Source: Gammaproteobacteria bacterium (GTDB taxonomy: Bacteria > Pseudomonadota > Gammaproteobacteria > JAKDMP01). Taken from it: a stretch of DNA of 49,407 nt. The position numbers were made by a program, and so were the translations under genes. The first letter of the stretch is position 1; every line of letters starts with the position of its first letter. This document shows positions 376 to 19,013 of this stretch, piece after piece. The notes under the pieces were generated by a model that saw only the letters and a program-made list of their open reading frames with translations, made no database searches and was not told where the DNA came from. The stretch covers positions 1-49,407 of the forward strand of contig JALUYA010000030.1 in NCBI GenBank assembly GCA_027018875.1, read 5' to 3'.

Positions 376-3300
376 CTACTTGGCTCCTTTCACACTGCCG
401 CGAAATTGATAGCAGTGCCAGATCTGTTCTTCGCAACGCACGGGATTGCGCAGGATCTGTTTTCCCCAGAAGGTTAACACCGCCCAGCCCTGCGCCTGTA
501 GGGTATTGCGCTTGGACGCATCCCCACTCAAGGCATCGGCATTACCGTGGTAGGCAAAGCCATCGCAGTAGATGGCAATCTTGCGCTCCGGGTAGGCGAA
601 ATCCGGGACGGTGATCAGCGTGCCATCGTCTTTGCGATATTCATACTGCGCCGTGGGTTCCGGCAAGCGCCCGGCGGAACGGATGGCCTGCACCAATTTC
701 CGCTCGATGGGGGTGTCGTAGGTTGGCGCTTGGGCAAATGTCTTCGCCGACCATTTGGCTGCCGAGCACTGGGCTTCGCCGACCGCTCCGGATCTCGGCT
801 CCCCGGTTGTTTGCGCTTCGCTCATATGAAACAGGGCGCTGCGCACCAGTTCCTTGTCGAGCAGCGCGTGATCCATCTGGTTGCGCGAGGACTTGAGGCA
901 GCGGTAGCAGGCACGTTCACATTCATGGGCGTACAGCCGATCCTGTGCCGAGCGCGCCCAGTGAGGCAAATTCCGCGCGAGTTGTTCCAGATAGCCAGCC
1001 CCACCGGGAGCCGTCTCATAAAGCACCAGGTTCCATCCGGAAGCTGCGCCGCCGAAGTGGAAATAGGCGATTTCATCCGGTTCGATCTCAAGCATTTCCT
1101 GGGCGCCGACCACCAGCGCCTTGCCTAGCGTCTTGCAGAACGGCTTTGCAGCTTGTGCATCCGGCGGCATCCAGCCCGGCGCCACAGGAAGAATCAGGGC
1201 ATCGGCGGAGAAGCGGTAACCGAGTACATAGGGCCGCGGCTCCCCAATACAGAACCTTTGGTGATTTTCATTCCAACGCGCCAATGCTCGTGCGTTGAGG
1301 CCAGGTGGACGATGCCGACCGCAGTTCGGACAAAGTTCGAAAGGCTCGCCCTCGCCGCCCCAGCGACGCTGGTGCCCCCAATTGCTGACCAGCAAGTCAG
1401 CGTGGGGGCGAAGTTCGAGCGTGGTGAATTCATAAGGGAAAAGTGTGACCGATATGTCGCCGTTTTCCAGCAGGTGTTCGCGTCGCTCGAAGGTCAGACG
1501 TTGGCGGGCATCTTCGGCGGAGGTGATCTGGGTGTTTTCCTCGGCTTCGAACGCGTCGATCAACGCGATTTCGGCAGGGGACCGCAGCGGTTCATGACAT
1601 TTCGGGCATTCGTTGCGAACCTTGGTGGTGGCAAAACCGCAAGGCTCGCAAAAATAATATGCCTCGACGCGGCCGGAGCCCTCGGCGCCACGATCACGGG
1701 CCGTGGACCGTGCTCCGCCTTCAAAAAAGGCACGGATGGTCTTGAGCTTGTGTCCGTTGGCGTACACCATGTTGCCCGGCGCGAACTCGAACAGGGCGAT
1801 CCATGCCGGCCGGCGCAGCATCGGCGTGTCGGCCACACCGGGATCGAGCGAGAACGTGTCCGTCGGGAACTGGTAGGACGGCAGCAGACCCACGTCGGCG
1901 AAATAGGTCAGGCTGAAGGCCTTTTGACGATCCTTGGTCAGTTCCATGTAGGCCCGCATACGCGCGCGCCGCTTCTGCTCACTGTCGCGGGTTCTGACGA
2001 TGAGCGAATATTCGTTGAATTCACGGTGCAAACGCTGAACCTGCACGTGCCATTGCCGGATAGTCTCCTCGATCAGCGCGGGAAACTGATTGACTGTTTC
2101 CTCGATACCTGAAACGTCACCGAATGCAGCTTGCGCGCGCGCTTGAACAGTGGATCCTTGTTCACGCAATTTCTCCAGCAACGGCTGGAAGCGCTCGTCA
2201 CGCAACTTTGCCGGGTTCTGTTCGTCCTGCAGAAGGTCGCCCATCAGCCAGGAAAAGTCCTCGTTCAACTCCTCCAGGGCGAAGGAACGAATGTGCCGCG
2301 CGACGATTTTGTCGTTTTGCATGCGCACCGTGGGCGGCCGGAACTCACCGCGCACCAGCCAGGCGGGGTTCTCGAAACAGTAGCGGTCATGCGGCGAGAT
2401 GCCGCAGAAGGTGGAAATGAATCCGATGCGCAGCCTGCGTCCGGCGCGGCCGGCCCGCTGTACGTAATTGGCGGGAACCGGTGGCGCATTGCGCAGCAAC
2501 ACGCTGTACAAATCGCCGATGTTGACGCCAAGTTCCAGCGTCGGGCTGCACACCAGCACCTCGACCTTGCCGTCCTTGAAATCCTGCTCGCGTTTGGCAC
2601 GCTCCTCCTGATCAATCTGCGCGGTATGCTCCAGCGCGCGCAGACGACGCGGACGGTCCTGGGTGTAGAGGTTGACGTAATAGTTTTCGTGGTCAGCGCG
2701 ACTTTCGAGCAGATCCTCCTCCACCCCGGAACAACTGGTTGTCGCGTAACAGGCTTCCGTATGGTACGGCCGCCAGATCGTGCACTTGCGGCAGCGCCAG
2801 CCGTCCCCAGCCGCAACCAGTTTAACCACGCGCTTCGCCAACTGGAATGCCGGGCGCCCGCCGAGATGGCGGCGCACGCCATCGGGTAGATGGATCGCCT
2901 CGACGATCTCGTAGTCCTTCAGCAACTGGAACATCGCGCGAATCCAAAGCTCGCCGGCATGCGCGCCCAGCCCGGCCTTGTTGTACACGAGGCGGGCAAT
3001 GCCCCCGGGCGCACCGCGCTCGGCGTCCTTGACCAACGCCTCGCACTTGATGCCGGAAACGGGCCGGCTACGCAGGGCTTCCGGCCGGTCGAACACGAAG
3101 ACGGTCGCGCCTTTTTCGTACTCCGGAATGGCGAGGTTGTAGGGCTCCTCGGCAAGCCAGCTCCAGGGCGTGCGATTGGGATTGAGGTAACGCCCGTAAA
3201 AATCGAACGACACCGCGCGCCTACGGCGCATGAAATCCAGCATCGAACGGACCAATACCGCACCCTTCTCGGTGCTGACCGATGCGTCGGCACAGGCGTC

Positions 3301-5559
3301 TGCAAAACGTGCATCCTCGATCAACTGATCGAGAAACTCGTACTGCACTTCGATCAGGGCGAGGTTCTCCAGCCCGATGCGTTGTTGCGAACTGCGACAA
3401 AACTCTCCCGCACATTCGTAGCTCAACGTCTTCTGCCATTTCTTGCATTCTTCGCTGCTGGGTTTGCGCCGTGCCAGACCAATGTTTTGGAAAATCTCGA
3501 ATACCGCCATGGGCAGAGACTCCAGCGCGATTCCGTCGGATCCGGCTGCCCGCACAGCGCTTTCGATGGCGTGGCGCAGCGCAAACTGACGGTGCCGGTC
3601 GCCCATATAACCGGCCTGGTGCGCGGCATTCTGACGGTTGTCGGTGAACACCAGCAGACGGCATTGATCCCGAGGCACTTCGTCGAGATGGTGCGTCCCC
3701 AACACCGAGACACTGGAAGCGACGCCGGTACGCAACAGACTCAATACATCGCCGCGCGAAGATCGGCTGTTACACACCGGGCAGGTGGAGCCCTTGCGGC
3801 GCATCACGTATTGTTCGCTCAGGTTCTCCGCCGGAATTCCCTCGGGGCGGGTCTCGTACACACAACCGCTCGCATGATCCACCCATTCGCAGCTCAATGC
3901 TTTGCGGGCCGTGGTCTGACGACGACGCCGGGTACGCCGTGCGGCATTCACCGTAGCCGCATCGCTTACGTCGTCATCCTCGCTCTCGTCCTCGTCCCGC
4001 TCCCCGATCAGCTCCGGTGTAATAAAGGCGGTGTCATCGTCGCTTGCGAACTCCTCGTTGGGGACCGTTTGTCCCGGATGTTCGGGATCGAACCGCACCT
4101 TCACGAAATCCTGCCCGCAGGTGCGGCACAGCACCGCCGGGCGCACCACGCTGCCACATTCCGGGCAACGGTCGGCCCCGTCGGTGAGCAGTTTGCGGCA
4201 CTCGGGGTTCAGGCACAGACCCACGTCGTACACACCATGGAAAAACGTGTGCAGCTTGGGCCGGAGCAGCGGCGGATGATCGTCATCGCCGTAGCTGCCG
4301 ATTACGAGATACGCCGCAATCAGGCGTTGCAGGTCGTCCTCGGAAAGCGTCTCCAACGCCGGCAAATGTTCGCGCAGTGAAGCGCCCAACTCCTCCAGGC
4401 TCCGCGGCGATTCACCGAATTCGCGCAACGCAGCGACGATTTCATTCCCCTCCAGCAGCCCGGTCAAGCGGGCATGCGTGTCGCCCTGCGCCGGCGCCTT
4501 GCGGCCGCATAGCCGTTCGGCCAGCGCCAGCAGTTTCACGTCGTCGTCCTGGGTCAAACCTGCGATTTCGTCCTCACCCAGCACGACGGCCGACGGCATG
4601 TAGGGTTGCGGCGGCTCGGGATGCGGCAGATACGCTTCCCCGATGATGTCCGCGGCTGCGAACGGTTCGGCAAACAGGTCGGAGGCGAAACATGCCAGCG
4701 CTTCGTCGCCGCCGGCGTCCTGCGAAACCGTGGCCGAGGTGCCGAGGCAGTGCAATTCGCCGGCCTGCAACCCGCAGCGCGCCTTGAGACGGCGGATCAG
4801 GCAGGCCATTTCGGTCGCCAGCGCGCCACGATAGCTGTGAATTTCGTCCAGCACCAGATAGCGCAGCGCCGGCGTGAACAGCACGCGGTCGGCCTTGCGC
4901 ACCAGCAGGTATTCGAGCTGCTTGTAGTTGGTGAGGATGATGTCCGGCGGCGCTTGGCGGATCTGTTCGCGCCGCGTCAGCTCGTTGCCTTCGACGTGCT
5001 CGCCCAGCGCCGTGGTCACCCTCTCGCTGTCGCCGGTGTAGAGCGCGAAGGTGACCGGGCTGCCGGTATCGCGGATCAGTTCGCGCAGCCGCCCCAACTG
5101 GTCGTTGGCCAGCGCGTTCATTGGATACAGCAGGATCGCCTTGGTGCCCGGAATCCCCTGCACGCGCTGGCGCAGAATGCCGGAAAGTATCGGCAACAGA
5201 AACGCCTCGGTCTTGCCGCTGCCCGTGCCGGTCTTGACGATGACGTTGCGCCCGCCCTCAACCGCACCCAGTGCCTGTTCCTGGTGTGCGAACAGCGCGT
5301 GTTCGCCGAATGGCCAGTTGAGGCGTGCCAGGTCGGCATGCCCCTTGCCGTCGGCCAGCAACGCGGAAAGCGGCTTTCCGGGTGCGAAATCGCGCGCCAG
5401 GATCACGTACGGCCCCTTGATCAGTACGTCGGCGCTGTTCACGTGCGTCTCGAACTGCGTGCGCAGCTTCGGATCGGCCAGCCGGTAGGAACTCAGGATG
5501 AAGCTGCGGTACTGCTCCTTGACGTGGCGGACGCTTTCGAGGACGGAGAAGCGGTTCAT
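376..5559 (-). CDS. DEAD-box/DUF1998 helicase with C-terminal Vsr/DUF559-like nuclease (1727 aa)
   Basis: A very large superfamily 2 helicase. Visible motifs are Walker A GTGSGKT (residues 111-117), DEIH box (238-241), SAT motif (about 275) and an arginine-finger motif QRAGRAGRR near residue 1035. Several Cys-pair zinc-binding clusters lie between about 445 and 600 and near 920, 1300 and 1410. A DUF1998/MZB region follows (about 1490-1570), with GGAGYLEQ and a CxxxCxxC cluster. The last 110 residues contain PDFAYPERKIAIYCDGFAYHG, matching the D...D...H core of the Vsr/DUF559 PD-(D/E)xK-like fold. DUF1998 helicases are signatures of DISARM (DrmA/DrmB) and Druantia (DruE). Here helicase and DUF1998 are in one chain, closer to DruE in architecture. 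Its ATG overlaps the stop of the upstream PIN-like gene by four bases (ATGA), so the two are translationally coupled. It is the last gene of its operon. Confidence 0.85.
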   Translation of the reverse strand: MNRFSVLESVRHVKEQYRSFILSSYRLADPKLRTQFETHVNSADVLIKGPYVILARDFAPGKPLSALLADGKGHADLARLNWPFGEHALFAHQEQALGAVEGGRNVIVKTGTGSGKTEAFLLPILSGILRQRVQGIPGTKAILLYPMNALANDQLGRLRELIRDTGSPVTFALYTGDSERVTTALGEHVEGNELTRREQIRQAPPDIILTNYKQLEYLLVRKADRVLFTPALRYLVLDEIHSYRGALATEMACLIRRLKARCGLQAGELHCLGTSATVSQDAGGDEALACFASDLFAEPFAAADIIGEAYLPHPEPPQPYMPSAVVLGEDEIAGLTQDDDVKLLALAERLCGRKAPAQGDTHARLTGLLEGNEIVAALREFGESPRSLEELGASLREHLPALETLSEDDLQRLIAAYLVIGSYGDDDHPPLLRPKLHTFFHGVYDVGLCLNPECRKLLTDGADRCPECGSVVRPAVLCRTCGQDFVKVRFDPEHPGQTVPNEEFASDDDTAFITPELIGERDEDESEDDDVSDAATVNAARRTRRRRQTTARKALSCEWVDHASGCVYETRPEGIPAENLSEQYVMRRKGSTCPVCNSRSSRGDVLSLLRTGVASSVSVLGTHHLDEVPRDQCRLLVFTDNRQNAAHQAGYMGDRHRQFALRHAIESAVRAAGSDGIALESLPMAVFEIFQNIGLARRKPSSEECKKWQKTLSYECAGEFCRSSQQRIGLENLALIEVQYEFLDQLIEDARFADACADASVSTEKGAVLVRSMLDFMRRRRAVSFDFYGRYLNPNRTPWSWLAEEPYNLAIPEYEKGATVFVFDRPEALRSRPVSGIKCEALVKDAERGAPGGIARLVYNKAGLGAHAGELWIRAMFQLLKDYEIVEAIHLPDGVRRHLGGRPAFQLAKRVVKLVAAGDGWRCRKCTIWRPYHTEACYATTSCSGVEEDLLESRADHENYYVNLYTQDRPRRLRALEHTAQIDQEERAKREQDFKDGKVEVLVCSPTLELGVNIGDLYSVLLRNAPPVPANYVQRAGRAGRRLRIGFISTFCGISPHDRYCFENPAWLVRGEFRPPTVRMQNDKIVARHIRSFALEELNEDFSWLMGDLLQDEQNPAKLRDERFQPLLEKLREQGSTVQARAQAAFGDVSGIEETVNQFPALIEETIRQWHVQVQRLHREFNEYSLIVRTRDSEQKRRARMRAYMELTKDRQKAFSLTYFADVGLLPSYQFPTDTFSLDPGVADTPMLRRPAWIALFEFAPGNMVYANGHKLKTIRAFFEGGARSTARDRGAEGSGRVEAYYFCEPCGFATTKVRNECPKCHEPLRSPAEIALIDAFEAEENTQITSAEDARQRLTFERREHLLENGDISVTLFPYEFTTLELRPHADLLVSNWGHQRRWGGEGEPFELCPNCGRHRPPGLNARALARWNENHQRFCIGEPRPYVLGYRFSADALILPVAPGWMPPDAQAAKPFCKTLGKALVVGAQEMLEIEPDEIAYFHFGGAASGWNLVLYETAPGGAGYLEQLARNLPHWARSAQDRLYAHECERACYRCLKSSRNQMDHALLDKELVRSALFHMSEAQTTGEPRSGAVGEAQCSAAKWSAKTFAQAPTYDTPIERKLVQAIRSAGRLPEPTAQYEYRKDDGTLITVPDFAYPERKIAIYCDGFAYHGNADALSGDASKRNTLQAQGWAVLTFWGKQILRNPVRCEEQIWHCYQFRGSVKGAK

Positions 5560-6056
5560 CTCAGCCCCTCCTCCAGCACGAACGCCGTCCGAAGGTCTGA
5601 CAGCCAGCGTTCACAAAAATGTTCCTTGAGGTCGGGTTTCGAACCCGCCGCGTGCGCCAAGGATGCCAGCGAAACCATTCGATCCTTCCAGCCTAACGCG
5701 AAAGCTGCCCTGAGCGCGGCGCGATCGGCACAGCTTGCGATCCAGGCATCGCTGCGGCCGAGCGCATGGGCAAACAAATGCCGCTCGCCAGCGTCGAGCT
5801 CATCCGCCATCGGCAATGTCGCGGCAAGCCGCACCTGCTCGCCACGGTCGACATCGTGAACCCCGCCAATGCGTCCCAAATCCTCGGCCGTCACCGGCAC
5901 ATACTGACGGCGCATCGGGTCGCCGGTTCGCGCCTCTTCCATGCACTTCTCGACCGTTTCAATGGTGAAATGGCTGCTCACCGCATTCCAACAACACGTC
6001 CGGACCGCTTCGATGATGATATTGGTATCCACCAGTACAATCTGTCCGTGCTGCAT
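5556..6056 (-). CDS. PIN-like domain protein in defence operon
   Basis: A 166-residue protein beginning MQHGQIVLVDTNIIIEAV. The DTN triad at residues 10-12 and a Glu at 16 match the first acidic motif of PIN-fold ribonucleases. LDAGERHLFAHA and DAWIASCADRAAL in the second half supply further acidic positions in the expected order. PIN proteins are metal-dependent RNases, often toxins or effector nucleases. No VapB-type antitoxin gene sits beside it; instead it lies 15 bp after the XRE/ImmA gene and overlaps the giant helicase by four bases. It is therefore more likely a component of the defence operon than a free-standing VapC. The ribosome binding site is weak, so translation may be coupled to the upstream gene. 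Confidence 0.65.
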   Translation of the reverse strand: MQHGQIVLVDTNIIIEAVRTCCWNAVSSHFTIETVEKCMEEARTGDPMRRQYVPVTAEDLGRIGGVHDVDRGEQVRLAATLPMADELDAGERHLFAHALGRSDAWIASCADRAALRAAFALGWKDRMVSLASLAHAAGSKPDLKEHFCERWLSDLRTAFVLEEGLR

Positions 6057-6071: not shown

Positions 6072-7190
6072 TCACAAGTCAAAGGGAGCGGGCAGACCAT
6101 AGCTTTCGAAAAACTCCTCCATGTCCTCGAAAGTCATCCCCAGCAGCGAGCCGGCGCGGCGCACCGACAACGCACCCCGCAGCAGGCCCGCGTGCAAGCG
6201 TTGCGCAAATTCGGCGCTGAACAGGCGCGGCTTCGGCTGCTTTTGCGTGGGCCGGCCGTTGGCCGTGAGCTTTTGGTCTTCGATATCCAGGAGATCGGTC
6301 CTGGGCAGCAGGCCGAGATAAAACATGCGCCATTTCAGGGCCTGGGCTGAGACGCACAATTCCGTTGCGGTCTTGTTGAGCCACGCATGCAGCTCGCTTT
6401 CTTCCAAGCGGCTTTGCCAACGCACGGCAAGCTTTTGCTGCGGCATCAGCAACGCCCCCGCAAAGTTGTCGGCAAGCTGCTCGATGCGCTTCTGCCGGCC
6501 CTTGCCGTGGTAATCACCGTTGATCGCCTCGCGGTGCGCCGGCGTCATCTGCTCCCAGGTCAACAGATGGAAGCATTCGTGCGCCAGATCGAAATAGCGA
6601 CGCCCCTCGGGCTCGTTGCGATTGATCAGAATCGTGTTCAGGCCAGGCAACTGACAGGCCGCACCCGAGATGCCCAAGGGCGCATCCACGTACAACACCA
6701 GCGCGCCAAGGTGCGTCTTGATGGCGCCCTCCAGTTCCAGTGCCGGAATCGCACCCAGCTCCCACTCGCGCAGCAGCGCCTCGGCGGCGTCCCACGCCTG
6801 CTCAAAACTGCTTTTTTGCGTCAACGGAAGACGCACCTGCAAGGGGCTGGCCGCTCTGTCCGCTTTCTCCCCGAGCTTGCGGTAGAGCGCAATCCAGCGC
6901 CCGGCCTTGTCTTCGAATTCATCCAGCAAGCTGGCGCTGGCTTCATGGTTCGCGCGCCAATTGAAGGCGCCTTCGCCGACGAGGCGCAGCGAATCGGTGA
7001 AAAAGTCGAGATCGAGCTTGAAGATGTCGAGCGCGCGCACCAGCTCCTCGGCCGTGATCTTGCGCTGCCCGGCCTCGATAGCCGCCAGCGTCTGACGGTC
7101 CTTGAAGCCAAAGCGTTTGGCAAGCTGGGCCTGCGTCAGGCCGGATTTTTCGCGGGCGTATTTCAGCCGGCGGGCAATGACGTCGCTCAT
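6072..7190 (-). CDS. XRE-family regulator with ImmA/IrrE-type zinc peptidase domain
   Basis: A 372-residue two-domain protein. Residues about 5-60 form an XRE helix-turn-helix (LTQAQLAKRFGF). Residues about 150-260 carry an ImmA/IrrE (DUF955) metallopeptidase domain with the zinc motif HECFH at 204-208 and a downstream EQLADNFAGALLMP helix that normally supplies the third ligand. The open frame extends upstream, but the ATG at 7190 has a GAGG-type ribosome binding site and begins exactly at the helix-turn-helix, so it is preferred. Proteins of this type relieve repression by cleaving a partner, or act as the regulator itself, in mobile elements and toxin-antitoxin loci. It starts 7 bp after the GIY-YIG-like gene. 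The inverted repeat at 7522-7547 is a plausible target. Confidence 0.85.
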   Translation of the reverse strand: MSDVIARRLKYAREKSGLTQAQLAKRFGFKDRQTLAAIEAGQRKITAEELVRALDIFKLDLDFFTDSLRLVGEGAFNWRANHEASASLLDEFEDKAGRWIALYRKLGEKADRAASPLQVRLPLTQKSSFEQAWDAAEALLREWELGAIPALELEGAIKTHLGALVLYVDAPLGISGAACQLPGLNTILINRNEPEGRRYFDLAHECFHLLTWEQMTPAHREAINGDYHGKGRQKRIEQLADNFAGALLMPQQKLAVRWQSRLEESELHAWLNKTATELCVSAQALKWRMFYLGLLPRTDLLDIEDQKLTANGRPTQKQPKPRLFSAEFAQRLHAGLLRGALSVRRAGSLLGMTFEDMEEFFESYGLPAPFDL

Positions 7191-7197
7191 GGGGACC

Positions 7198-7485
7198 TCA
7201 CTTCCCCTGCTTGTTGTATTTGGGCTGCGAGCGTCGAATTGCACGCGCTTCCTCGTCGCGCGCGGCGGCGATGTTCGGCTGCTGTTCAACGACGACCTTC
7301 GCTCCCGGTATGTAGTCTTTGCCACCGGGCAGGTGCTCGCCCAGACGTTCCTGCACACGGCCACGCTTGGCCGTGCCGACGTAATTCGTCTTGCCGCTCT
7401 CTGTCTGGATGCGATAGGTAGCTGGCCGATCATTGGGCGCCTTGGCGATTCCCTGTCGGTTGAACGGTACGGTTTTGCGGGGCAT
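7198..7485 (-). CDS. Small GIY-YIG-like protein
   Basis: A 95-residue protein, first gene of the downstream defence operon. The central stretch YRIQTESGKTNYVG followed by RVQERLGEHL, and a terminal ARAIRRSQPKYN, resembles the compact GIY-YIG nuclease fold: paired Tyr-Ile/Tyr-Val-Gly strands, a catalytic Arg in Rxx(x)RLxEH, and a later Glu and Asn. The first GIY motif is degenerate (YRI), so activity is uncertain. An AGAGGA ribosome binding site lies just upstream of the ATG. The gene follows a well-formed promoter and precedes the XRE/ImmA gene by 7 bp. It could be a nuclease subunit or a DNA-binding remnant; the family call is motif-based only. Confidence 0.5.
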   Translation of the reverse strand: MPRKTVPFNRQGIAKAPNDRPATYRIQTESGKTNYVGTAKRGRVQERLGEHLPGGKDYIPGAKVVVEQQPNIAAARDEEARAIRRSQPKYNKQGK

Positions 7486-7515
7486 GGCGAGTTCCTCTGG
7501 TGTCTGATCATGTGC

Positions 7516-7544
7516 ATTTTAATCTTGCAAAACAAAAAATGCAA
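7516..7544 (-). promoter_or_regulatory. Sigma-70-type promoter for the GIY-YIG/XRE/PIN/helicase operon
   Basis: On the minus strand a TTGCAT -35 hexamer (7544-7539) and a TAAAAT -10 hexamer (7521-7516) are separated by 17 bp. They lie 30-60 bp upstream of the GIY-YIG-like start codon and downstream of the drmMI-like stop (7587). This separates the defence locus into two transcription units. Confidence 0.6.
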
Positions 7545-7547
7545 GAT
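7522..7547 (-). promoter_or_regulatory. Perfect inverted repeat covering the -35/spacer (candidate operator)
   Basis: Arms ATCTTGCA (7522-7529) and TGCAAGAT (7540-7547) are perfect complements with a 10-nt A-rich centre. The repeat covers the -35 box and the whole spacer of the operon promoter, so a bound dimer would block RNA polymerase. The likely ligand is the XRE/ImmA protein encoded second in the operon, giving autorepression; this is inference. Confidence 0.55.
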
Positions 7548-7586: not shown

Positions 7587-10500
7587 CTAGCGGGCTTCGG
7601 CGACCCATTCGGCGAGGCGGTCGCGGAGGTAGGCGTGGAAGGCGGGGCGTTTGCGGGCGAAGACGGAGAAGGTGGCGAGGATGTGGGCGAGGTCGGCGGT
7701 GTCGAGACCGTAGGCCTCGGCGACGGCGCGGTTGGCTTGCCACAGGGGCTCGAAGCGTTCGGGGTCGTCGGTGTCCTCGGGGGCGTTCGGCGCGGAGCGG
7801 GTGGGGACGGTCGGGATGTCTTGTAGCGCGGCCGGCGGCGGTACGGCGACGCGGCTGATGTGGGTGAAGTTGATCGTTGAGCTCACGCGGAAACGGAGCA
7901 GGAAGTCGAAGGCAAAGGAATTCAGAACCGTGCAGGCGATGTCCGCAGACGGCGTGTCTATTTCGAGGATCGGCAGCTTGTTGTTGGCACACGAGCGCTC
8001 CGGCAGGACAGCGGCAAGGCAGGTGCGCTCGTCGGTGTTGCGGGCGATATCACGGAAGACCAGCTTGGGTGCAGCGCTGGGCCGGCGGTGGTATTTCTGC
8101 TCGGCGGCTTCGAGGCTGAGCCAGCGCGTGATGGGTTTGGTGTCCACGCGGAACTGGTCGATCTGCTTGCCTTCGTAGAGCGGCCAGAAGCCGCGCTCGG
8201 CCATCGCTTCGCGCACCTCGGCGAAGGGCATGCCGCTCACCGGCCAGTCGAGCCCACAGATCTCGCACGACGTGTAGAGCTGGCCGTTGGACTTTGTCCA
8301 CAGGTCGCGGTCGTTGGTCATGTCGAATTCGCGATAAAAATGCGCGTTCCAGGTGCCGGGGCCGTCGGCGCCGAGAAGCGGACGCGGGGTGTCGCCGTCG
8401 CGCAGGCCGTACATCTTCGCCACCACGGCGCGATCACGCTCGCTGCGGAATTCGAGCAAGGCGAGCGTGCCGGGCGAGAGCCGCTCGATCTCCGCCTTGG
8501 CGAGCGCCACCGTCACGCCCGGCGGTGGGCCGGCTTGGAGTTCGTCCAGGTCGTGGCGCATAAAACAGGCGGGAAAACGATGCTCCGGCGCGGGGGGAGC
8601 CTTTTCCGCCGCAAGGCAGACGAATTTGTAGCGCGAGTCAATGGCGAAAATCTTCTTGCGGTTCTCGAAGCCGAAGAAGCGCGCGATGCGCATCTCCTCG
8701 AGCAGTAGATGGCGCAAGCCGGTGCAGCCCTCGTTGTTGTAGACGGCGCTTGGCACCAGATAGCCCAGGCGCCCGCCGGACTTGAGCACGCCGGCGGCGC
8801 GCTCGACGAAGAACTTGAACAGGTCCGGGTCGCCGCCGGTGGAGCGGCCGTTGATCTCCCAGTCCGCGTAGTCGTAGTCGCCGCCGCGCTTGAGGCATTG
8901 GGCGACGGTCTTCAGGTGCTCGCTGTAGGCGTCGAATTGCTCGGCGAGGTCGGGGTCGGCGCGCGTGAGCTCGCGGATACGGGCGTCCAGCTCGCCGCCG
9001 GTCCAGGCGCGGATCAGGACATCGTGCGCACCGTAGAACTCCTTGCGATCGGGTTTGACCTTTTCCCACGGCGGGTTGCCGAGTACGCAATCGAAGCCGC
9101 CGTCGGCGAGCACTTCGGGAAACTCCAGTTCCCAGTGGAAGAAGCGTTCGCGCGCGCGCACGGCTTCGAATTCGCTCCACCAGGGCCGCGTGCGGGCATC
9201 GGCCTTCAAGTCCATGGAGGACATCAGCTGCGGCAGTTCGCGCCAGATCGCCGGCATGAAAGGCGCGGCGCTGCGCAGGTCGAGCAACAGGCGCGCTTCC
9301 GCCGTGGCGGCTTCGGCGCGGCGCAGACGGTCGTCCTTGTAGGCGTACTCTTCGGGTGTGTCCCGTCGCACCTCGGGCGGCAGCGGCGCGTCGATCAGGC
9401 GGCGTTGGTCGAGCGCTTCGGCCAGGCGCCTTTTCAGTTCGGCCTCGAACAGGCCGCGCGTGTGGCGTTCCTTCGGCTTGCCGAGGCCGGGATGCGGCGG
9501 CTGCTCGAAGCGGTCGAGCGAACTGCCGAGCAGCGAGTTGCCGCAACGAATGTGGTGGGCGAAAAACGACAGCGGCCGGTCGCCGGCGAGCGATTCGATC
9601 CACAGCGCGACTTGCGCGAGTTGCACCGCGGCGGGATTCAAATCCACGCCGTAGAGACAATGCTCGACAACGCGGCGCTTGCACCAGTCGCGGCCCTCGG
9701 CCTCCCAGCGTGCGCGCACCTTGTCGTCAACGTGGTCCGGACAAAAGGCCGGCGGCGGCTCGCCCTCGCCTTCGCGCGTGTAGGCCGCGTTCAGTTTGTC
9801 GCCGAGAAAGCGCGCCGCGCCGACCAGGAAGTGCGCCGAGCCGCAGGCGAGGTCCATCACCCGCAGCCGCTCGATTGCGGCCGCACTCTTGTCGGCCGCC
9901 AGCGGTTCGAGCGCCTCGCATACCAGGTAGTCCACGATGGGCGTCGGCGTGTAGTAGGAGCCGCTCGCCTTGCGTGCACTGCCCGGCTTGAAATAGAACG
10001 CGCCGGGCTCGAGGCGGCGCAGGAGCTTGAGCGTCGCGCCGCGTTTGACGCCGGTGTCGGCGGGCCCGTCGGCGTCGGTGCCTGCGTCGGCTTCGGATTC
10101 TTCTGCATCGTCGTCGTTGGCTTCCTCGTCCTCGCTGACGGCGTCGGGGTGCAGGTGCTCGGCCGCGGTGCCCGTAACCAGCGCCAGATCGCCGCGCACC
10201 GCGAGGCCTTTCTGCCCGGCTAGGCGCACGAGATCATCGGGGGCGAGCACGAGGTCGCGGCCGGCGGCGCGACATTCGATCATGGTCCGATCGGCCTCGG
10301 CGGGTTCGTATTCGAGCAGGCCCTGGTAGACGTTGCCGAGCTGCTCGATGTCGAGTTCGCGGAAGGACACCCGCTCGCGACCCACACCGCGGCGCGGGCG
10401 GGTGGCGGCGAGCGCGAGCAGCACGGCGGCGGCGGTGCGATCGTCGAGGCGAAGCCGGCGCAGCAGGCGCCCTTCGGGCGTCTCTTCGCTGAACAGGCGC

Positions 10501-11513
10501 CCGCCACGCGGCGGGATGTTTTCCAGCTCCGGCAGGTGCGGCTCGATGCCTTCGTTGAAGATGCGGAACAGTGCCTGCAGGTGCGCCCACAGGCGGTGCC
10601 GGTTGGCGGGCAACATTTGAGGATCGGCGCGCAGCAGGCGCGCGACGATACCGTCGAGCGAGTAGTTCTTCTGGTAGAAGCGATGCCGAATCAGCCGATC
10701 GTCGCGGGCTTCGGCATAGAGAATGAACAAGAGCCGGTAGAGCGCGAGAAAGCCCGCGTCGCGCAGCTCGGCAAGACCCGGTGTGGCTTCGAATGCGTCA
10801 GGCCGTTCGCCGACATCGGCGAGAAACCCGGCGACGATTCTTTCCGCGGCCTCGAACACCGCCTGCTTCAGGTCTTCCGAGACGCGGGCGCTGTGGCGGC
10901 GGCTTTCCGCTTCCAGCCGCTCGATCGGGCGCACGCCGTCCGCCCCGGGCAGAAAGTTTTCGGCCGCGAGCACGCGGTAGGCGGCGGCGAGGGAGTCGGC
11001 GTCGGCGGTTTCGACGAGCGCGGAGAGATGCAGATCGAAGGCCGCGCCGCGCTGGCCCTGTCCCGGTCGGCGCACGAGTCGCAGTTTTTCCGGGGTGATG
11101 AGAAACCCGTAATCGAGTTCGTGCGAGAGGAGCGCGTCTTCGAGCCGCCGGCGGGGTTGCGGGGCGTCCAGCGCCTCGGCCTCGGGCAGAAGCCAGGCGA
11201 AGGCGACGCGTGCCGGCGCCGCACCGTCCGTTGTCGCGGTGAGCGGGCGCAGGCGCGGTTCGTCGGCGTTTTCTTCGAGCGCGAACCCCAACACTTCCTC
11301 GAACAACGGGCGCGCGAGGCGTTCGCGCAGGCGGGTCAGCTCCGGCGGTTCGACGCCATCCACGGCCTCGACCCCGCGGCGCAGCCGCTCCAACGCCTTG
11401 CGCGTCTGGGCGGGCGTGAGGCGCGCACCGGCCGCACCCCGTGCGGCAGCAAGCGTGCCGAGCCAGTAGTCGGAGAAGAATCCCTTGTGGTTGTGGAGGG
11501 CGGCGAGCGGCAT
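7587..11513 (-). CDS. drmMI: DrmMI/PglX-like N6-adenine DNA methyltransferase (1308 aa)
   Basis: A large Eco57I/PglX-type methylase. After a 500-residue N-terminal region it has GSYYTPTPIVDYLV (about 520), the AdoMet-binding motif MDLACGSAHFL (about 555), GVDLNPAAVQLAQVALW, and the catalytic NPPW box in FDCVLGNPPWEKVKP (about 813). The C-terminal third resembles target-recognition regions. Such proteins methylate adenine to mark self DNA in BREX (PglX) and class 1 DISARM (DrmMI). No pglZ or brxC is present, while a drmD-like gene lies directly upstream with only a 2-bp gap, so DrmMI is the better label. A GGAGGA ribosome binding site is embedded in the end of the upstream gene. An acidic, low-complexity insert (about residues 455-480) resembles a linker. 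Confidence 0.8.
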   Translation of the reverse strand: MPLAALHNHKGFFSDYWLGTLAAARGAAGARLTPAQTRKALERLRRGVEAVDGVEPPELTRLRERLARPLFEEVLGFALEENADEPRLRPLTATTDGAAPARVAFAWLLPEAEALDAPQPRRRLEDALLSHELDYGFLITPEKLRLVRRPGQGQRGAAFDLHLSALVETADADSLAAAYRVLAAENFLPGADGVRPIERLEAESRRHSARVSEDLKQAVFEAAERIVAGFLADVGERPDAFEATPGLAELRDAGFLALYRLLFILYAEARDDRLIRHRFYQKNYSLDGIVARLLRADPQMLPANRHRLWAHLQALFRIFNEGIEPHLPELENIPPRGGRLFSEETPEGRLLRRLRLDDRTAAAVLLALAATRPRRGVGRERVSFRELDIEQLGNVYQGLLEYEPAEADRTMIECRAAGRDLVLAPDDLVRLAGQKGLAVRGDLALVTGTAAEHLHPDAVSEDEEANDDDAEESEADAGTDADGPADTGVKRGATLKLLRRLEPGAFYFKPGSARKASGSYYTPTPIVDYLVCEALEPLAADKSAAAIERLRVMDLACGSAHFLVGAARFLGDKLNAAYTREGEGEPPPAFCPDHVDDKVRARWEAEGRDWCKRRVVEHCLYGVDLNPAAVQLAQVALWIESLAGDRPLSFFAHHIRCGNSLLGSSLDRFEQPPHPGLGKPKERHTRGLFEAELKRRLAEALDQRRLIDAPLPPEVRRDTPEEYAYKDDRLRRAEAATAEARLLLDLRSAAPFMPAIWRELPQLMSSMDLKADARTRPWWSEFEAVRARERFFHWELEFPEVLADGGFDCVLGNPPWEKVKPDRKEFYGAHDVLIRAWTGGELDARIRELTRADPDLAEQFDAYSEHLKTVAQCLKRGGDYDYADWEINGRSTGGDPDLFKFFVERAAGVLKSGGRLGYLVPSAVYNNEGCTGLRHLLLEEMRIARFFGFENRKKIFAIDSRYKFVCLAAEKAPPAPEHRFPACFMRHDLDELQAGPPPGVTVALAKAEIERLSPGTLALLEFRSERDRAVVAKMYGLRDGDTPRPLLGADGPGTWNAHFYREFDMTNDRDLWTKSNGQLYTSCEICGLDWPVSGMPFAEVREAMAERGFWPLYEGKQIDQFRVDTKPITRWLSLEAAEQKYHRRPSAAPKLVFRDIARNTDERTCLAAVLPERSCANNKLPILEIDTPSADIACTVLNSFAFDFLLRFRVSSTINFTHISRVAVPPPAALQDIPTVPTRSAPNAPEDTDDPERFEPLWQANRAVAEAYGLDTADLAHILATFSVFARKRPAFHAYLRDRLAEWVAEAR

Positions 11514-11515
11514 GG

Positions 11516-14440
11516 TTATTCCTCCGGAAAGACCAGCAACACGCCGAGCGGCTGCGGAGGTTCGGGTTCGTTCACTGCGGTGAGGCGCTCGATTTCCCTG
11601 AGGCGCCGGGTATAGATGGTTTCGACCGCCGCGCGGCGTGCGCGCCAGTTGGTTTTTGTCTCGCCGAAGAGTTCCGCCTGCATGCGACTGCCGGCGCGTT
11701 CCTCGCCTTCCTGATCGTCGATTTCAGCCAGCCGGTCCACCTTGTAGAGCGCCGCTTCCTCGCGCAACGTTTCGGCGAACGTGTCCATACGCGCGTGCTC
11801 GCGCTCGGCGATTTGCCGCAGCACGGCCTGGGCCTCTTCGGCGGCCTTTGCCTGCAAAGCCGCGAAGTCCGCCGTGAAAATGCACTCGCATTCGCTCCAC
11901 GGCACTTCGCCGGCCGGGCTGTCCCGATCGGCAAACAGTCGTTCGGTGGTTTCCTGCGGCAGGATTTCGCCATCCGCACCGATGGCAACGGGAAACACCC
12001 GGCCCTGCGGATGGGTCTGGCGTTCGAGAAAGGTGAACAGGGCGAGCGGTGCGCCGGCCCGCGGATGACGGCGCACCGCGATGCGTGCGGGAAGCTGGTT
12101 GCGCGCGGGCTCCAGCGTCAATTCGCGCAGGGCGTGTTCGGCGACGGCGCGAGCGAGCGGATGCAGGCGATGAACATAGGTCACCTGATCGGCGGGATAG
12201 CGCGCCGCGACCGAGCGCAGGAAAGTGGCGCAGTCGTAGCGCGGCTCGACCTCCGCGCCCTGGTACATGCGCGGCACCGCGATCCGCCAGGTGCCGGGTA
12301 AGGCGCTCTCGTGCAGGCCGGCGTGCAAGGCTTCGCGCATCACGTCGGCAAAGGCAAGATCGTCATCGAGCAGGGGATCGGCCGAGACGGCATTGGCGAA
12401 CGGTTGCGAGGTGTCTTGCCTCTCACCGTAAATCAGAAGCGGTGCCATCTCGCGGGAGAATTCGCGCTGGCGCTCGTCCACGTCGCGGATCAGCGCCTCG
12501 CTGGTGCGTTCGGCATCCTCCGCGGAGCAAATGGCGACAATTCGGTCCTCGATGCGACTGCCTTCCAGAATGCCAAGAATGTCGGGCGTTACGACCTGGT
12601 CCTCACGCATGGTGGCGATGCGCCGCACCAGTTTGTCGAGGACGCGATCCTCGGGCGAATCCGGGTAGTAGAGATACCGAATGATCGGGGCGCGCGTCTG
12701 ACCGTGGCGGTCGATGCGGCCGTTGCGCTGCTCCAGCCGGTTGGGATTCCACGGCAACTCGACGTGATACAGGCGGCGGCAGTGCTCCTGCAGGTTCAGC
12801 CCTTCGCTGGCCGCATCGGTGGCGAGCAGAATCCGGCAATCCGGCTCGTGGAAGCGGGCGATGCGCCGGCGACGCTGGCGGGCGGAGATGCCGCCGGTGA
12901 GTTCCGCGCAGGCGTTTTGCAATTGCGGGTGGGCGGCAAACGCATCGCGCAGCGCCGCAAGCGTGTCGCGGTATTCGGTGAAGATGATCGTCTTCTCGTC
13001 CGGGCCTGCCAACACATCGCGTTCCAGATCGGCAATGAGTGCAGTGATCTTGGGATCGGGCGCATCGGCGACCGTATCGAGCAGCTTCTGTACCTGCTTG
13101 AGCTGGCGCTTTTCCGACGCCCGGCGCCGATTGTTACGGTTGATGGCCGCGCGCAACACGCGCTCGGCGGTGCGCTCGGCCTGCGTTTCGCTGAGCGGCA
13201 AATCGCTTTGCAACTCGCGCAGTTCGACGCGCCGGGGCGGTTCTTCGCGTTGCCGACTGGTGAGCGCCGCGAGACGATTGGCCACCGTTTGCCGCAACGC
13301 CGCGCGGCTCGAAAGCATGCGCTTCTTGACGATCTGCATGGCGAAGGAGACCAGGTCCGCTTCCTCGCCGCGCTCCGCGGCCTGCACGGTGGTCGTGCAG
13401 TAGTCGGTGATGAGCCGGAAGATTTCGCGCTCGTCGGGACTCAGGTTCGTGACTGCGATCCGGCCCACCGGTTCGCGCGGGGGAAAAGCCGGTATTTCCT
13501 TTTCGCTTGCGTCATGCTTGACGATCTGCGATTTCAGGCGACGGATCATCGTGCGCCCAACGCGGCGCTGAACGTCCTCGATACGTCCATGCAGCGTGGC
13601 TTCAGCCGGGTCGGCCAATTCCAGCAGCGAGCGGAAGCTGTGCCGGTAACCGTTGTGCGGCGTGGCGGTCAGCAGCAGCAGCGTTCGCCCCTGCGCGCGC
13701 AATTTCCGGCCGAGCCGCGTGCGGGCCGTGGAATAGGGATTGGCGGGGGTGCCCGATTCGGCCAGGTAATGCGCCTCGTCTACCACGATCACGTCCCACG
13801 GCCGGGCCAGTGCCGCCGCCATCACGTCGCGACGCTTCAGGTATTCCGTCGAGGTCACGATCCGGTCGAAGTACACCCACGGCTGCAGGCCTTCGGAAAC
13901 AGTGGTTTGGGCACGATCCAGCGCAGCCGAGTTTTCGATGGACTGAAAGCGCAGCCCGAACTTGTCCCACATCTCGTCCAGCCACTGCGGAATCAAGCCC
14001 GGCGGCACCACCAGCAGCACCCGCCGCGCGATGCCCCGCGCCATGAGTTCCAGCAGGCACAGGCCGGCTTCGACGGTTTTGCCGAGACCGACATCGTCGG
14101 CGATCAGCAAGCCTCGCCGCGGACCGGAAAGCAACCGTGCAATCGGGGCGAACTGGTAGGGTTCGGGCGAAATGCGCCCGGCCACCAGCCCGGCATAAGC
14201 GCCTTGCGGGGGCGTCTGGATTTCCACGGCGCCATGCAATTGACGCCAGTGCCGGAAGGGCGTCAACGCACGCCGGTCGAGTACGGGCGCCGGTTCGACG
14301 AGCGATTCAAATTCTTCCGGCGGGCACAGCGCTTCCAGCGACTCCCCAGTTTCCAGGTCACGCAACGACAAGAGTTGACGCGAGCCAAGCTCTTCCGTGC
14401 CGAGTACCCGGCACACCTGCCCTCTGAACATAACTTTCAC
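11516..14440 (-). CDS. drmD: DrmD-like SNF2-family helicase (974 aa)
   Basis: A complete SNF2/RapA-like ATPase: Walker A DDVGLGKT at residues 115-122, DEAH box at 221-224, LLTATPHNGY (motif III), and the C-terminal helicase motif NGRIDRHGQT near 575, followed by about 390 residues with coiled-coil-rich ends. Length and partner match DrmD, the SNF2-like protein that accompanies DrmMI in class 1 DISARM. The start is GTG 14440, with AAGG eight bases upstream; an ATG three codons later (14431) is an alternative. It heads the two-gene drmD-drmMI unit. No convincing promoter was found upstream; the preceding 570 bp are unexplained. Confidence 0.8.
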   Translation of the reverse strand: MKVMFRGQVCRVLGTEELGSRQLLSLRDLETGESLEALCPPEEFESLVEPAPVLDRRALTPFRHWRQLHGAVEIQTPPQGAYAGLVAGRISPEPYQFAPIARLLSGPRRGLLIADDVGLGKTVEAGLCLLELMARGIARRVLLVVPPGLIPQWLDEMWDKFGLRFQSIENSAALDRAQTTVSEGLQPWVYFDRIVTSTEYLKRRDVMAAALARPWDVIVVDEAHYLAESGTPANPYSTARTRLGRKLRAQGRTLLLLTATPHNGYRHSFRSLLELADPAEATLHGRIEDVQRRVGRTMIRRLKSQIVKHDASEKEIPAFPPREPVGRIAVTNLSPDEREIFRLITDYCTTTVQAAERGEEADLVSFAMQIVKKRMLSSRAALRQTVANRLAALTSRQREEPPRRVELRELQSDLPLSETQAERTAERVLRAAINRNNRRRASEKRQLKQVQKLLDTVADAPDPKITALIADLERDVLAGPDEKTIIFTEYRDTLAALRDAFAAHPQLQNACAELTGGISARQRRRRIARFHEPDCRILLATDAASEGLNLQEHCRRLYHVELPWNPNRLEQRNGRIDRHGQTRAPIIRYLYYPDSPEDRVLDKLVRRIATMREDQVVTPDILGILEGSRIEDRIVAICSAEDAERTSEALIRDVDERQREFSREMAPLLIYGERQDTSQPFANAVSADPLLDDDLAFADVMREALHAGLHESALPGTWRIAVPRMYQGAEVEPRYDCATFLRSVAARYPADQVTYVHRLHPLARAVAEHALRELTLEPARNQLPARIAVRRHPRAGAPLALFTFLERQTHPQGRVFPVAIGADGEILPQETTERLFADRDSPAGEVPWSECECIFTADFAALQAKAAEEAQAVLRQIAEREHARMDTFAETLREEAALYKVDRLAEIDDQEGEERAGSRMQAELFGETKTNWRARRAAVETIYTRRLREIERLTAVNEPEPPQPLGVLLVFPEE

Positions 14441-17764: not shown

Positions 17765-18820
17765 TCAGCCAAGCAATTGTGCCAAATCCTCTGCCTTCAG
17801 GTGCGTGTAGCGCTTAAGCATCTGTAGCGTTTTGTGCCCCGTGATGGCGGCAACCTGCATAGGATTAAGACCTCGCTCAAAGAATCGACTTGTGGCCTCG
17901 TGTCTTAAATCATGGAACCGTAAGTTTGCCAAATAGCCCGGCTCGGTTTGTTGCCCTTCTTTCTGGCACCCCTCGATATAGGTGACACGAGCTGTCTTCA
18001 CCACCCGTCCAAAGCCGGTCGTGACGAAACTGGTGGACAAAGTCCATACCCGACCATCCAGTTGCCTCGGAAGACTTTTAAGGATATCGACCGCAGCCGA
18101 CGAGAGAGGCACGGAACGGCTCCGAACGACCTTGGCGTCCTTGACCTCCGGAATAAAGACGGTTCGACGCGAAAGGTCGACATACTCCCAGCGCATCGAA
18201 ATGATTTCGCTTCGGCGCATGCCTGTTTCCAGTGCAAAGCGGATGAGTTCGGGGAACTCCCGGTAGCGGGCAGCGGCCTTAATAAGCCGCTTTTCCTCAC
18301 CTGGTAGCAATCGGCGATCCCGGCCGGCCGACGGTTTAGGCTTTTTGATCAATTCCACCGGGTTGACCAGCGAACCCATACCCCACTCGGTCCGGGCCAC
18401 GGTGTAGAGGTTAGAAATCAGCGCAAGATCGAGCCTCACGGTATTGGCAGCCTTGCCTTCCGCGATAAGCCGGTCCCGGTAGGCGCTCAGTTCCTTCCCG
18501 CCGAGATTCGAGAGGTAGACACGGCCCAATGACGACTTAATGATCCTTTTAGCCCTCTGTGCCTCCTGGAGGGCTCCTCGCTTATGCGGTGTAACCTCGC
18601 GAACGTAACGCTCAAGCGCATCAGCGAACGTAATCCGTTCTTCTTCCCTGCTCAGCACCAGATGGCCGCGGACCATGGCCCGCTCAATTTCACGCGCCCA
18701 GGCTTGGGCTTCTCCCTTCGTATCGAAGGTGCGGTATCGGCGCGGTTGCCCCTGCCTGATGATTTGAGCCTGCCAGACGGTACGTCCGCCTGGCCCTGTG
18801 CGCTTGCGTATAGCCGCCAT
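17765..18820 (-). CDS. Tyrosine-type site-specific integrase of the island
   Basis: A 351-residue phage-type integrase: N-terminal arm-binding-like segment (GGRTVWQAQIIRQG), SAM-like core-binding domain (about 65-150), and catalytic domain with Arg202 (ETGMRRSEI), His303/Arg306 (HDLRHEAT), His329 (TGHK) and the nucleophile Tyr338 (KRYTHL). The open frame reaches 18871, but ATG 18820 begins MAAIRKRTGPGG, a normal start for the family. It reads away from tRNA-Gln, whose 3' end lies 120 bp upstream, so it most likely integrates at that tRNA. All catalytic residues are present, so the enzyme may be active. Confidence 0.93.
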   Translation of the reverse strand: MAAIRKRTGPGGRTVWQAQIIRQGQPRRYRTFDTKGEAQAWAREIERAMVRGHLVLSREEERITFADALERYVREVTPHKRGALQEAQRAKRIIKSSLGRVYLSNLGGKELSAYRDRLIAEGKAANTVRLDLALISNLYTVARTEWGMGSLVNPVELIKKPKPSAGRDRRLLPGEEKRLIKAAARYREFPELIRFALETGMRRSEIISMRWEYVDLSRRTVFIPEVKDAKVVRSRSVPLSSAAVDILKSLPRQLDGRVWTLSTSFVTTGFGRVVKTARVTYIEGCQKEGQQTEPGYLANLRFHDLRHEATSRFFERGLNPMQVAAITGHKTLQMLKRYTHLKAEDLAQLLG

Positions 18821-18884
18821 AACCACTTCAGCCCTAGATTCTCCAATCTGATTATGGCAGAGAAATGGCAAAAGGCAAAAACAA

Positions 18885-18939
18885 ATGGCGCCGTAGCGCC
18901 CTTAATTAATATATCTTGTTGTTTTTGTTATATTTATAT
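18885..18939. other. A+T-rich junction, candidate attachment-site flank
   Basis: A strongly A+T-rich run separates the integrase promoter region from the 3' end of tRNA-Gln at 18940. The crossover core is expected to lie within the tRNA 3' half, as in other tRNA-targeted islands. No matching direct repeat was seen elsewhere in the window, so the core cannot be delimited. Confidence 0.4.
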
Positions 18940-19013
18940 TGGCTGGGGGACCAGGATTCGAACCTGGGTTGGCGGAGTCAGAGTCCGCAGTCCTACCGCT
19001 AGACGATCCCCCA
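18940..19013 (-). tRNA. tRNA-Gln (anticodon CTG)
   Basis: A complete cloverleaf on the minus strand: 7-bp acceptor stem (TGGGGGA/TCCCCCA), D-arm, an anticodon arm GCGGA-CTCTGAC-TCCGC giving anticodon CTG, and a T-arm with GGTTCGAATCC. The G discriminator and genomically encoded CCA occupy the 18940-18943 end. It lies between rpsI and the integrase and is the likely insertion target of the island. The gene remains intact, so the island restored its 3' end on integration. Confidence 0.95.

Follow-up and report, generated by a model that had tools for sequence, protein, structure and literature searches.

The window, by which we mean the whole 49,407-nt stretch analysed (contig JALUYA010000030.1 of assembly GCA_027018875.1, from a Gammaproteobacteria bacterium), carries a defence locus in which comparison with homologous loci supports a second expression unit, begun by a conserved operator-promoter just past the methylase gene. 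We consider it likely that a portable XRE/ImmA-PIN module, inserted at the methylase-effector junction of an ARMADA-like locus, has this site as its autoregulatory operator-promoter, and that the site works as follows. The XRE/ImmA protein would bind paired GCAAG/CTTGC half-sites, which cover the -35 and lie against or over the -10, and once bound would repress transcription of the GIY-YIG, XRE/ImmA, PIN and helicase-nuclease genes; the upstream SNF2 helicase and methylase genes would have another transcription start, not governed by this operator. Inactivation of the XRE part would follow when the ImmA metallopeptidase senses a signal, for which DNA damage and single-stranded DNA are candidates by analogy with other members of the family, so that the promoter opens and the PIN protein is freed. 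ImmA-type peptidases are described as relieving XRE-type repression in the ImmR/ImmA and IrrE/DdrO pairs (in the parts of PMC7907104 drawn on here), whereas in the window repressor and peptidase form one protein, with a PIN partner. The features of the locus are, in order of transcription:

11516-14440, minus strand: DrmD/BrxHII-like SNF2 helicase (ArmA-like), upstream unit (PADLOC DrmD E=2.8e-132; NCBIfam DISARM_DrmD E=2.3e-140, bit score under the curated cut-off)
7587-11513, minus strand: PglX/DrmMI-like adenine methyltransferase (ArmB-like), upstream unit (profile matches; NPPW motif in the translation)
7522-7547, minus strand: operator core ATCTTGCA-N10-TGCAAGAT, signature CTTGC-N12-GCAAG (sequence and conservation)
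7539-7544, minus strand: -35 TTGCAT within the left operator arm (sequence; 17-nt distance to the -10 kept in homologues)
7516-7521, minus strand: -10 TAAAAT abutting the right operator arm (sequence; -10-like hexamer enriched at a fixed offset in homologues)
7514-7528, minus strand: putative 15-bp dyad O2, GCAAG-ATTAA-AATGC, over the -10 (enrichment of half-sites in homologues at offsets -10 and +27)
7198-7485, minus strand: 95-aa GIY-YIG-like protein, first gene of the controlled unit (Pfam GIY-YIG E=0.004, under the curated cut-off)
6072-7190, minus strand: 372-aa fusion of XRE HTH and ImmA/IrrE (Peptidase_M78), putative repressor/antitoxin (Pfam HTH_3 and Peptidase_M78; HECFH intact)
5556-6056, minus strand: 166-aa VapC-like PIN protein, putative RNase toxin (conserved acidic residues; AlphaFold model)
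376-5559, minus strand: 1727-aa YprA/DruE-like DEAD helicase with MZB zinc domain and C-terminal Vsr/PD-(D/E)xK-like nuclease (ArmC-like effector)

All of the defence genes thus lie on one strand, with the dyad between the methylase and the GIY-YIG-like gene. The helicase-nuclease and PIN genes share 4 nt at the PIN stop. The helicase-nuclease has DEAD, Helicase_C and MZB stretches and a Vsr/MTES_1575/DUF559 stretch, in which DUF559 scores over its cut-off and Vsr and MTES_1575 slightly under theirs; its best PADLOC match is DruE. No Pfam match and no PADLOC family were found for the 166-aa protein. Its AlphaFold model (pLDDT 91) has PIN-domain proteins as top PDB matches, including Pyrococcus VapC4 (E ~1e-3, TM-score 0.6-0.7), and residues D10, E41, D88, E91 and D111 are kept in 99-100% of 103 homologues; we therefore predict a PIN fold. 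The sequence-only reading had correctly made the second gene of the controlled unit an XRE regulator with its own ImmA-type peptidase (the HE[LC]FH motif and the GFKDRQT region are conserved among homologues), and its second unit stands; the PIN gene and the ARMADA/DISARM identity were missing from its description of the locus.

By gene content and order alone the locus matches ARMADA (Bell et al. 2025, PMC12458937). In the order A-B-C it has the BrxHII/RapA-like helicase, the PglX-like methylase and the YprA-like helicase, which carries a DUF1998-type zinc module and, at its C terminus, a Vsr-type nuclease. It differs in having the operator and the GIY-YIG, XRE/ImmA and PIN genes between B and C; the main text of the ARMADA paper does not mention XRE, ImmA, PIN domain or GIY. 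No GajB-like ArmD (RelE domain, Type II ARMADA) was seen in the window, where the contig ends 375 bp past the helicase gene. Likeness to class-1 DISARM lies in the DrmD- and DrmMI-like upstream genes and in the module itself, which DISARM relatives carry between drmMI and drmA. However, the window has a single 1727-aa YprA-Vsr protein instead of separate DrmA and DrmB, and no DrmC was seen.

Read along the minus strand, the site consists of ATCTTGCA (7547-7540), the 10-nt centre TTTTTTGTTT (7539-7530) and TGCAAGAT (7529-7522), so both the perfect inverted repeat and the TTGCAT-17-TAAAAT promoter first described by the sequence-only reading are present. The -35 matches the sigma-70 consensus at 3/6 positions, which is why a consensus promoter scan did not list the promoter; the -10 matches at 5/6 with 17-nt spacing, a geometry conserved in homologues. 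Judged by chance statistics within the window the dyad is not special, since the count of perfect 8-bp inverted repeats (loop lengths 3-20) is 38 there and 14-36 in six shuffles. These numbers and the weak -35 would fit a functionless chance dyad in an AT-rich gap, and on window statistics alone that explanation would not be rejected; it is ruled out by the comparative result, tens of divergent loci having kept the dyad with constant spacing and position, which leaves it scarcely credible. It is this conservation that gives the dyad its significance, with dyad and promoter geometry recurring together upstream of homologous XRE/ImmA genes.

Homologues of XRE/ImmA came from 369 genomes of the class, plasmids, 80 genome contigs and 44 viral contigs; an initial genome-contig search with a single protein gave no relative. 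Among the resulting 135 loci, which are mutually related and hence non-independent, CTTGC-N(6-18)-GCAAG lies upstream of XRE/ImmA in 97, compared with 1.4% of background windows, and the spacer is nearly always 12 nt. With the spacing fixed at 12 nt and up to two mismatches, 119/135 loci have the site. All 30 DISARM loci carry it at ≤1 mismatch of 12 and all 38 viral-contig loci at ≤2, as do 43 of 52 other loci (≤2 mismatches); control windows gave no exact site (0/2356) and seven at one mismatch (7/2356). ARMADA-like operators are more degenerate than those of DISARM (7/15 at ≤2 mismatches of 12 within 450 bp of XRE/ImmA, some sites lying farther upstream), and two loci (L019, L020) have an operator-like dyad with ATTGC/GCAAT arms. 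In the homologous sites a TTGCAA-like -35 is part of the left arm, and just past the right arm, at a constant 17 nt from the -35, comes a TAnAAT-like -10; a -10-like hexamer (≤2 mismatches) stands at this offset in 55 of 108 sites, against 3.7% of control offsets. Thus what is by sequence the same switch precedes the same pair of regulator and putative toxin genes in about 100 other genomes and prophages.

Two further half-sites are enriched around the core across homologues: GCAAG ahead of the left arm by 10 nt (offset -10; mean 2.9/5 matches vs ~1.2 at other offsets) and CTTGC at offset +27 (mean 2.6 vs ~1.1). The simplest reading would be two 15-bp GCAAG-N5-CTTGC dyads, O1 over the -35 and O2 over the -10, and the repeat noted first is probably the inner halves of this pair. 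In the window the outer half of O2 is partial (AATGC) and that of the upstream dyad, O1, is absent. Such half-sites at fixed offsets, and a weak -35 of the kind seen in activated promoters, could mean that XRE/ImmA is a dual regulator, one dimer activating from O1 and another repressing from O2, as phage repressors and restriction-modification controllers do. The missing outer half-site of O1 in the window argues against this, as does the position of the -35 itself inside the left arm, and we find dual regulation quite doubtful.

Because XRE/ImmA and PIN alone accompany the site in every context, XRE/ImmA, the only one of the two to carry an HTH, is its natural binder. Proteins that lack the motif also bear on this. 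L017 has no operator, and its recognition-helix region reads LEDDDS instead of FKDRQT; the distant L139-L142 also have no operator, and neither they nor L017 have the RQ[ST] recognition-helix motif. Association of HTH motif and operator gave p=0.004 (Fisher test), a figure for which the strict pattern misclassified several proteins, so that we rely on the individual cases. We infer that XRE/ImmA binds the operator, and the overlap of the site with both -35 and -10 favours repression as the sign of regulation. The exact operator pattern occurs once in the 2.2-Mb genome, with seven other one-mismatch sites against four for a backwards-pattern control, and a host-wide XRE/ImmA regulon was rejected.

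The PIN gene comes after XRE/ImmA in 30/30 DISARM, 35/38 viral-contig and 14/15 ARMADA-like loci. Because a PIN homologue follows XRE/ImmA in most loci, the pair and the operator travel as a unit, and the operator belongs to a mobile, toxin-antitoxin-like module. Features of such modules are present, namely an HTH-Xre domain fused to a COG2856/M78 peptidase with HExxH and an adjoining predicted PIN fold with conserved acids; toxin activity of the PIN protein is putative. Operons of COG2856-Xre fusions and PIN genes were predicted as toxin-antitoxin operons by Makarova et al. 2009 (PMC2701414), likewise with a fused HTH-Zn protease gene, mobile and present in prophages and plasmids; the parts of that paper drawn on here give neither an operator nor a DISARM- or ARMADA-type placement. 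RmrA models of RosmerTA (RmrA/RmrT) match the XRE/ImmA protein (E=8e-21), and identity with RosmerTA was rejected on finding no RmrT match for the partner gene in PADLOC. In class-1 DISARM the module separates drmMI from drmA, and in the window's group it precedes the YprA-Vsr helicase. It also occurs in prophages and as a solitary locus; in viral contigs it adjoins serine-recombinase and replication genes.

That the pair occurs with the same operator alone and in prophages, and that the stretch from the methylase stop (7587) to the operator (7547) showed no terminator, would suit a passenger addiction module. In such a case the operator would autoregulate XRE/ImmA-PIN only, control of the helicase-nuclease would be a by-product, and the defence genes would be expressed mainly by read-through from the methylase unit. 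Against this, the 4-nt overlap of PIN and helicase-nuclease genes in the window and the drmA genes that overlap or abut PIN in annotated DISARM relatives indicate co-expression, insertion has hit the same junction repeatedly, and some loci have effector genes in the space from operator to XRE/ImmA. We think it unlikely that the module is only a passenger. Without a terminator, read-through from the methylase gene into the second unit is nevertheless possible, so the claim that the promoter isolates the effector half was too strong; a separate operator-promoter past the methylase is what stands.

The sequence-only reading had also proposed that the methylase half is constitutive and the nuclease half held back so that self DNA is modified before the system is armed, a delay like that imposed by restriction-modification controller proteins, which are XRE-type regulators too. 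In the window and in ARMADA-like relatives the operator does separate the methylase pair from the helicase-nuclease, and in DISARM it lies at the methylase-effector junction, with no extra operator upstream of the methylase half. But operator and gene pair also exist in prophages and solitary loci that have no methylase, so methylation timing cannot be the operator's general function. It could be one consequence of the layout; as the explanation of the site we hold it rather unlikely.

Natural controls bear out the two-unit layout itself. In DISARM relatives, where the conserved site starts the effector unit, none was found ahead of the methylase half; extra one-mismatch sites considered as methylase-half operators were rejected, as most of them fall at a single position within the drmA coding sequence. 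In three plasmid loci of class-1 DISARM without the module (Sphingomonas, Paracoccus, Sulfitobacter) there is a 4-nt overlap of drmMI with drmA and the junction carries no operator, and from this it follows that the module splits one operon into two. A module-less ARMADA control was not found, since a search of plasmids with the 1727-aa helicase gave no relative at E≤1e-60. Six DISARM loci (L015, L016, L059, L074, L080, L082) have a small DUF2188 gene transcribed divergently from the operator, and because of this gene their XRE/ImmA unit needs its own promoter.

ARMADA-like relatives with cargo keep the site between the methylase and the next gene, and XRE/ImmA is then 0.36-4.1 kb away. The cargo is GIY-YIG in L006, L022 and L026; GIY-YIG, a 145-aa protein and a ThsB TIR in L021, with L025 similar; an SMC/AAA protein and Schlafen AlbA_2 in L023; and an SMC-like protein and a 204-aa protein in L024, where the operator is degenerate. 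This variety of effector-like genes (Thoeris ThsB TIR, SMC/AAA, Schlafen AlbA_2 and GIY-YIG in L021, L023, L024 and L025) looks like an insertion slot. A broader reading is quite possible, if short of probable: a signal-responsive cassette of operator, XRE/ImmA and PIN toxin was repeatedly inserted at methylase-effector junctions of DISARM and ARMADA, turning one operon into two and offering a slot for further effectors (Thoeris TIR, SMC, Schlafen, GIY-YIG) that this switch would also control; the PIN toxin would be a fail-safe should switch or effector be inactivated. A different insertion at the methylase-drmA junction, also toxin-antitoxin-like, is found on a Thiodictyon plasmid (L147:4759-5908), an MqsA-family antitoxin gene with a SecB gene.

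Our comparison suggests that in two kinds of defence system a portable control module was plugged between the genes that mark DNA and those that attack it. A conserved operator dividing modification from attack genes, under a putative repressor with built-in protease and toxin partner, makes it directly testable how self-damage is avoided, and how activation occurs, in DISARM- and ARMADA-type systems. The operator also provides a 24-bp signature for locating more defence genes under the same control. A functional parallel, the RptR type I restriction-modification island with embedded DarTG (PMC12255303), shares a small repressor with a conserved operator and a toxin-antitoxin pair between restriction-modification genes, but its repressor is another, its site is TAGCTA, and the whole island is repressed from upstream with no split of methylase from effector. 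Searches for DISARM with ImmA/XRE or PIN/XRE, with most subscription papers outside their scope, found no published description of the operator or module within DISARM or ARMADA.

A search of the window for a second copy of the tRNA end, as would mark an island border, gave none. A phage-type integrase gene adjoins a tRNA-Gln (CTG) gene (18940-19013, minus strand) at 17765-19013, so the defence locus is probably on an integrated island. The prophage XRE/ImmA had no match in a phage record collection. In the viral contigs L099-L138, operator, XRE/ImmA and PIN are followed by a protein of ~760 aa without Pfam match, the module lying between a serine recombinase on the opposite strand and replication genes, which is possibly a prophage-borne defence operon. 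In two Gemmatimonadota-type genomes (L029, L036) the XRE/ImmA-PIN pair is placed directly before recF-like and gyrB genes.
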